In this document: positions 9,079-10,177 of the stretch, piece after piece
Layout: each line of letters opens with the position of its first letter
How positions within the stretch are numbered: position 1 is the stretch's first letter
Assembly (NCBI GenBank): GCA_031288885.1
Contig: JAITQP010000043.1
Location: 1 to 10,177, forward strand
From: Prevotellaceae bacterium
Lineage (GTDB): Bacteria; Bacteroidota; Bacteroidia; Bacteroidales; UBA932
Direction of reading: 5' to 3'
Length of the DNA stretch: 10,177 nucleotides
Position numbers and translations under genes: made by a program
Notes under the pieces: model-generated
The model's input: the letters and a program-made list of their open reading frames with translations, nothing else
What the model was told of the DNA's origin: nothing
Database searches by the model: none

Positions 9079-9876
9079 TTATAACTGTTTATTTTCGTTG
9101 CTAATTTCAGTCGCATTGTTGCGCTGCAAGAATTCGCGCGCGAGGTTCATGTACCCCACGCTTCCGTTTGACTGGGCGTCGTAGAGGATGACCGGCTTCC
9201 CAAACGAGGGGGCTTCGCTCAGCTTTACGTTGCGCATGATGATGGTTTCAAAAGCCATCGTGTCAAAGTGGTTGCGCACATCCTCCACCACTTGGTTGGC
9301 GAGCCTCACGCGGGCGTCGTACATGGTGAGCAAAAACCCTTCTATGGCGAGGTCGGGGTTGAGCCGCCCCTGCACCATCCGAATGGTGTTGAGGAGCCTG
9401 CTGAGCCCCTCAAGCGCAAAGAACTCGCACTGTATGGGGATAATCACCGAGTTTGCCGTTGTGAGGGCGTTGAGCGCGATAAGGCCCAGCGAGGGAAGGC
9501 AGTCGATGAAAATGTAGTCGTAGTCGTCCCTTATGGGCGCAATTACGTTGCCCAGCACGCTCTCGCGGTTAGGCCGCTCCACCAGCTCCAGCTCCGCCCC
9601 CACGAGGTCTACGCGCGACGGCAGCAGGTGCAAATTCTTGAGCTCCGTTTGCAGAATAGCGTCGCGCGGGTTGGCGTCGTCAACCATACATTCGTAGATG
9701 GTTGCCTTTATATTTTTTTCTTCAAAACCCAAGCCGCTCGTGGCGTTGGCTTGTGGGTCGGCGTCTATGAGAAGCACGCGCTTCTCAAGCACAGCAAGGC
9801 TTGCCGACAGGTTAATAGCGGTGGTGGTTTTGCCCACGCCGCCTTTTTGGTTTGCAATTGCAATTACTTTTGCCAT
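9079..9876 (-). CDS. parA: ParA/Soj chromosome-partition ATPase
   Basis: A 265-aa Soj-type ParA with no N-terminal HTH, as expected of a chromosomal copy. It binds DNA nonspecifically as an ATP dimer and is released by ParB, which drives segregation of the origin region. The deviant Walker A is KGGVGKTT at 11-18, with signature Lys11 and Lys16. The Walker A' region is [10 protein letters not shown] (35-44) and Walker B is [11 protein letters not shown] (121-131) with Asp125. The [15 protein letters not shown] segment (215-229) is typical of Soj/MinD-like proteins. It is the first gene of the seven-gene operon and has a leader of about 100 nt. The ATG at 9876 is fixed by the conserved [13 protein letters not shown] start. 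Confidence 0.97.
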
Positions 9877-9980
9877 TTTGTATGCCCTTTTTTTGTTAAC
9901 CCATAGTAGGATACACTCAAGTCCGAAATATCTTGCAAGTATAGCAATAAAACTCCAATTTTACCTTATAATTTTATTAA

Positions 9981-9988
9981 CAAATGTA
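9981..9988 (-). promoter_or_regulatory. Candidate -7 element for the par operon
   Basis: On the minus strand TACATTTG fits TAnnTTTG and would start transcription about 100 nt before the parA ATG at 9876. No TTTG/TTG lies 19-21 nt upstream, so support is partial. It is the only consensus -7 match I found in the parA leader, and I saw none in the short gaps inside the operon. Confidence 0.4.
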
Positions 9989-10013
9989 AATTACCAGATA
10001 TTTTACTGTCCTG

Positions 10014-10046
10014 TTGGGGGAAAGAGCGAAAAAAACAGTACCTTTG
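10014..10046 (+). promoter_or_regulatory. Promoter-like sequence facing right, antisense to the small RNA
   Basis: TTG at 10014-10016 and TACCTTTG at 10039-10046 match the Bacteroidetes boxes, with a 22-nt spacer that is slightly long. Transcription would start near 10050 and run rightward through the small RNA locus on its opposite strand, towards whatever lies beyond the window. It may serve a divergent gene outside this window or be a chance match. Confidence 0.4.
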
Positions 10047-10051
10047 CGCGC

Positions 10052-10090
10052 AAAAAAAAGATAGCCCCCTGCTGTCAGGTAAGCTATCTT
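10052..10090 (-). terminator. Intrinsic terminator of the small RNA
   Basis: On the minus strand AAGATAGC (10090-10083) pairs with GCTATCTT (10065-10058), eight perfect pairs. An inner stem, CCTG-ACAG-CAGG, sits within the loop. The 3' arm runs straight into T residues down to 10052, giving eight Ts in a row. This is a textbook Rho-independent terminator in this direction only. Confidence 0.8.
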
Positions 10091-10141
10091 GTCGGCCACT
10101 TAATTACGTTTCCCAAGGGAAAGAGGCTTGATTAAGCATCA
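10052..10141 (-). ncRNA. Small structured RNA of about 90 nt with its own promoter and terminator
   Basis: The minus strand has a complete small transcription unit and no coding frame of note. After the promoter at 10147-10177 the RNA should start near 10141. CTTAAT (10136-10131) pairs with ATTAAG (10104-10099) and encloses a second stem, TTTCC (10122-10118) with GGAAA (10113-10109), closed by a CTTG loop. A terminator hairpin follows and ends in a T-run at 10059-10052. It lies upstream of and codirectional with parA, separated by about 60 nt from the candidate parA promoter. The small Bacteroidales RNAs known from comparative genomics (for example Bacteroidales-1) share this promoter-stems-terminator layout, but I cannot assign it to a family from memory. 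Target and role are unknown. Confidence 0.7.
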
Positions 10142-10146
10142 CGGTA

Positions 10147-10177
10147 CAAAGGTAAGAATTATATTTGAATGTACAAA
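10147..10177 (-). promoter_or_regulatory. Bacteroidetes promoter of the small RNA
   Basis: On the minus strand TTTG (10177-10174), exactly 19 nt, then TACCTTTG (10154-10147) match the full Bacteroidetes consensus TTTG-N19-21-TAnnTTTG. This is the best promoter in the window. No start codon with a substantial frame follows, and a terminator lies about 60 nt further on, so it drives a short RNA. Confidence 0.75.

Follow-up and report, generated by a model that had tools for sequence, protein, structure and literature searches.

The question raised by this locus was what a small element resembling an RNA gene does upstream of parA, at the very end of a contig. The window (the whole stretch of DNA analysed) comprised 10,177 nucleotides (nt) of contig JAITQP010000043.1 from the Prevotellaceae bacterium assembly GCA_031288885.1, and the element lay at its end, on the minus strand, where an earlier note had described a small-RNA gene. 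By comparison with related genomes and by analogy with published systems, we consider this RNA to be probably the antidote of an AbiF-type phage-defence toxin, related to the abiF RNA but divergent from it, that would have landed beside parA by chance.

Anatomy and covariation of the RNA gene

On the minus strand of the contig end, a promoter was followed by a 40-nt hairpin, a short linker and a terminator with its T run (Table 1). The promoter, called perfect in the earlier note, was indeed an exact TTTG-N19-TACCTTTG match at 10177..10147, in keeping with the Bacteroides promoter consensus. It was the sole exact match in the window, against a mean of 0.06 across 200 shuffles, and its TTTG formed the final four bases of the contig. 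Similar boxes of the TAYCTTTG type preceded the copies of several relatives, not of all. The proposed intrinsic terminator was present in the minimum free energy (MFE) fold, where 10058-10065 paired with 10083-10090 and, nested within, 10068-10071 with 10076-10079; the T run covered 10059-10052 and left six Ts past the stem. A simple terminator scanner reported none at the element, probably since its loop limit was 8. A search for tRNA and tmRNA genes gave no match.

Table 1. Positions of the RNA gene and of neighbouring features in the window
Feature	Position	Strand	Description
RNA promoter	10147..10177	-	-33 TTTG (10174-10177), -7 TACCTTTG (10147-10154)
Conserved hairpin	10098..10137	-	7-bp outer stem, NAAGCCUC / YGUA internal loop, 5-bp inner stem; covariation
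AAGCCUCU	10122..10129	-	Invariant in 14/14 aligned sequences; common to Rfam abiF consensus directly past 5' stem
Intrinsic terminator	10052..10090	-	Interrupted stem and T run; MFE fold and sequence
parA	9079..9876	-	Pfam AAA_31 4e-70; neighbour only
TATACTTG	9936..9943	-	Probable promoter element of parA, inside genus-conserved stretch
TACCTTTG	10039..10046	+	Probable promoter of divergent lipid-kinase gene; parA-kinase box taken as corresponding in L174, L175

The fold of the single sequence was unexceptional (z -1.41; 18 of 200 shuffles folded as well), and therefore support for the element had to come from comparison. In an alignment of nine sequences all 106 cells paired, and both sides had changed in nine of the 12 pairs. 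When the alignment was extended to 14 sequences, 99.4% of 166 cells paired and double-sided changes were found in 29 cells versus 7.0 in shuffles, while sliding the partners brought pairing down to 26-52%; five of these sequences were found with a model, and their alignment is biased towards it. AAGCCUCU on the 5' side and GUA on the 3' side were invariant throughout, and the first base of YGUA was G in one of the 14. The two nested stems named earlier (10136/10099 and 10122/10109) turned out to be pairs within the outer and inner helices, and both helices covaried. With a promoter and a terminator of its own, and conserved with compensatory changes, the element is a stand-alone RNA gene whose predicted transcript would be roughly 90 nt long, a hairpin and then a terminator.

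Copies were sought with the DNA sequence, with a pattern and with a covariance model. Among 60 related genomes, three DNA matches were confirmed on reading, namely in G047 (E 2e-12), G010 (1e-9, 3' part only) and G001 (0.002). The pattern AAGCCTCTTTC..GRARCGTAATYAAG occurred in three genomes out of 393 from the order, one of the three being ours, and its backwards-read control gave no match among the matches listed. The model, R1, was built from nine sequences including the window, whose hairpin scored 60.6 bits as one of these training rows. With our own genome counted each time, R1 matched seven of the 393 order genomes, four of 11 genus genomes (two of them convincing) and six of 395 genomes in a phylum sample. 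Three matches had been dropped before counting: one inside a tandem repeat (G007, E 0.057), one apparently in or beside a coding frame (G009, E 0.2) and one of 14.3 bits about 1.7 kb from parA (L033). No plasmid copy was obtained by DNA search at E <= 1; a Bacteroides faecis plasmid does carry the hairpin and was located via its protein. The phage DNA search gave just one 24-base match (E 0.3), and in viral contigs one strict hairpin pattern gave no match and 48 pattern matches included zero confirmed Abi relatives.

Divergent pairing with compact Abi proteins

The copies in G047 and G177 stood back to back with genes for proteins of 227 and 224 amino acids (aa) that were 55% identical. The former matched Abi_2 weakly (E 0.0027, under the cut-off) and the latter had no Abi_2 match; both matched PD-T4-5 of PADLOC at about 1e-10. 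Within the protein family, 27 of 34 members matched Abi_2 at E <= 0.01. A search based on the protein found a relative at E <= 1e-15 in 14 of 395 phylum genomes, and the same hairpin lay divergently upstream in four of these (G712, G536, G574, G779) as well as on the B. faecis plasmid; at several other loci a different hairpin occupied this position. From hairpin to Abi start codon the distance was 39, 41, 42, 44, 50 and 67 nt in six loci, the 42 nt of the B. faecis plasmid becoming 84 nt by the plasmid's own annotation.

Apart from the window, R1 pointed to 13 places, seven of them training sequences and six new, and two lay too close to a contig edge for evaluation (12 bases before the hairpin in G130 and 98 in G446). 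A divergent Abi gene was present at eight of the 11 evaluable places (G047, G177, G151, G236, G574, G712, one place in G536, and G779, where the gene was broken by one internal stop) and absent from three (G001, G202 and the second place in G536). Four of the six new places were evaluable and two had the Abi gene, at 227 nt in G151 and at 156 nt in G236; the G151 protein passed the Pfam cut-off for Abi_2. RNA and putative toxin gene were found side by side in relatives.

The partner proteins (224-265 aa) had a predicted AbiF fold. The HEPN motif RxxxxH was present in all 120 retained homologues (461 were found), and R166, N167 and H171 were invariant in the 34 family members. A significant PDB match of the compact Abi was absent with Foldseek and came only from a second look with VIA-align. 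By BLASTP, one compact Abi showed no significant similarity to the 299-aa AbiF of our own genome.

Since in published AbiF systems the RNA binds and silences the toxin (the available parts of PMC12373285 and PMC12737573), we infer an antitoxin role for the present RNA. In its usual setting it would be transcribed back to back with the compact HEPN protein, and by the same analogy its hairpin would bind the toxin and hold the RNase site shut. If the RNA supply failed, for instance upon phage takeover, the toxin would outlive the RNA and the cell would be stopped.

The RNA might also be an orphan: either a relic left after loss of the toxin, or an antitoxin maintained without one, serving as an anti-addiction RNA or regulating some other HEPN protein. 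We regard an orphan as a substantial possibility, short of probable; it is the version of the antidote reading with no toxin in the assembly gap beyond the contig end, and the two confidences overlap. It agrees with the diverged linker of the window, the 3' remnant in G010, the RNAs beside HEPN-MNT pairs in G446 and G536, and the same-genus genome G001, where a complete RNA gene was present and no Abi match was obtained at the locus or genome-wide. A 38-aa gene fragment beside the G001 copy had no Pfam match. On the other hand, most evaluable places have retained a divergent Abi gene, and in the window neither the promoter nor the internal loop nor either helix is disrupted.

Several arrangements were observed besides these. 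The G010 remnant (C42:10877-10953, L004) consisted of the 3' half, with the terminator only, immediately past a stop codon, and may be a relic now serving as a terminator. The HEPN-MNT pairs adjoining the hairpin RNA were NTase_sub_bind and nucleotidyltransferase genes; no Abi was seen in these two loci (L171 in G446, which ends 98 bases before the hairpin, and L172 in G536). In G047 an HEPN-MNT pair lay about 700 bases past the RNA. Upstream of other compact Abi genes (L135, L140, L142-L145, L153-L155) a second RNA type was recognised by eye, a single hairpin-terminator (e.g., CCCGGTAGTCCCTG..TTCAAACTGCCGGGTTTCGTTTTT) divergent to the Abi gene, which appeared intermediate to the canonical abiF RNA; L135 (G010:C35) belongs to the genus of the window. 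A regular-expression scan of nine loci for this hairpin gave three matches, two of them plausible, and no statistical claim is attached to it.

The parA locus and the contig break

parA had a single match in each of 10 of the 11 genus genomes. Eight further parA loci of the genus include upstream sequence, and the RNA was absent from all of them; a ninth (G001) starts inside parA and was not counted. The RNA copy of G001 lay on a contig without parA. Homology of the relatives to the parA-proximal region of the window started at 9983-10003. The earlier note had suggested a link to parA, origin-proximal expression or growth rate, and nothing found here supports one. A trans-acting RNA or a leader controlling parA or chromosome partition is most improbable. 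The RNA does lie on the parA strand, about 176 nt separate its 3' end from the start codon of parA, and its terminator could work as an attenuator. However, the other loci do without it, parA has, past the terminator, a conserved upstream region of its own, and other genes flank the RNA elsewhere.

In the two closest relatives (L174 and L175), parA was divergent from a lipid-kinase gene, which in L175, where it was tested, matched Pfam DAGK_cat (1e-31) and YegS_C. In our own genome this gene started at base 1 of contig C166. No end overlap of at least 6 bases was found between the window contig (C16) and C166; from the gene order of the relatives, we infer that the two are adjacent. The simplest reading places an inserted RNA cassette in the kinase leader, with the break between C16 and C166 located within the insert, 40 nt beyond the hairpin. 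An antisense regulator of the kinase leader is a very unlikely alternative reading of this arrangement: the plus-strand TACCTTTG is directed into the element and C166 opens with the kinase gene, but the RNA is missing from both parA-kinase junctions of the relatives and adjoins other genes elsewhere.

For the antidote reading, the toxin gene would lie in the gap or would have been lost. The break at 40 nt compares with a toxin start expected at 39-67 nt, and a search of the rest of this genome, which is 79% complete, gave no compact Abi gene. Presence in the gap and an orphan state as in G001 are near even, with presence slightly favoured. A possible start of the toxin gene at 10169 (MYK) found no support, as none of the 120 homologues begins that way. 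On the B. faecis plasmid (L152, 32.9 kb), a ParA family gene, the RNA and the divergent Abi gene follow one another, the order also expected at the window; its ParA was 41% identical to the parA product of the window.

Likeness to abiF RNA and known AbiF systems

No Rfam family matched at its gathering threshold, and three further matches were at chance level (E 3 to 6.3). Identity with Bacteroidales-1 or 6S, the models that the earlier note proposed to search, found no backing, as neither model matched at gathering or at E <= 10. The abiF RNA model RF03085 (gathering 37 bits) did not match the element either, nor was it among the E <= 10 matches in the last 308 bases. Conversely, R1 missed four canonical or near-canonical abiF loci. 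The consensus orders are stem-AAGCCUCU-loop-CAAAUC-stem for RF03085 and stem-N-AAGCCUCU-inner helix-YGUA-stem for the element. Both are short hairpins with AAGCCUCU straight after the 5' stem, and both are associated with Abi_2/AbiF proteins, the element at eight of the 11 evaluable places in relatives; treating this position of AAGCCUCU as abiF-defining is our choice. The rest of the loop differs, forming a second helix and YGUA in the element, which also has a separate terminator. Because the 5' element is shared and neither model matches the other RNA, we treat the element as a divergent variant of abiF RNA and not as a member of RF03085.

Several abiF RNAs above or slightly below the Rfam cut-off were also seen, at G000:C42:4771-4807 (L120), the only place in our own genome above it among the candidates scored, and in G010 on C110, C241 and C157 (L119, L122, L125). 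Among the listed open reading frames of L119 and L120 there was no Abi gene; L120 ends about 270 bases beyond the RNA and also carries a nucleotidyltransferase gene. These four are possible solo antitoxin RNAs. The 299-aa AbiF (G000:C310, L128) was flanked by genes read as glutamate synthase and secA, and no abiF RNA match was listed for C310 among the 150 of 1513 candidates that were scored.

Tentatively, these RNAs may form a Bacteroidota-wide class of RNA antitoxins without a match in Rfam, divergent from compact AbiF-fold toxins, that also occurs free-standing, in some cases by HEPN-MNT genes, and could target other HEPN toxins in trans. R1 provides a means to annotate such modules in Bacteroidota, and NAAGCCUC / YGUA is a defined motif for the study of toxin recognition. 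At the level of titles and abstracts, the open-licence literature contained no paper on this hairpin or on divergent Bacteroidota AbiF RNAs, which is no proof of novelty.

We know of no RNA partner of PD-T4-5. This system (PDLC04038) was the only PADLOC match of the two compact Abi proteins, with a low score. PbAbiF/AbiFr (PDB 8VZ6) resembles the relatives' modules in the predicted fold of the partner, the RxxxxH motif and one structured RNA beside the gene, and differs in the 300 aa of its protein. As far as the accessible parts of these sources go, Cas13 and its guide have been proposed to descend from AbiF-type HEPN proteins and their RNAs (PMC12165695, PMC12737573), and the AbiF/Cas13 work of Zilberzwige-Tal and colleagues comes with covariance models of its own (PMC12804078). 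RCd22-AbiF of C. difficile, described in the part of PMC12373285 available as a type III-like toxin-antitoxin system, shares the hairpin motif, the RNA's own promoter and terminator, and an Abi_2-family neighbour. There, two abiF motifs per RNA lie upstream of the toxin in the same direction and are co-transcribed with it by readthrough, whereas the present RNA has one hairpin and, in relatives, is on the opposite strand. A divergent, separately transcribed single-hairpin RNA with a smaller partner would be a simpler arrangement than RCd22-AbiF.
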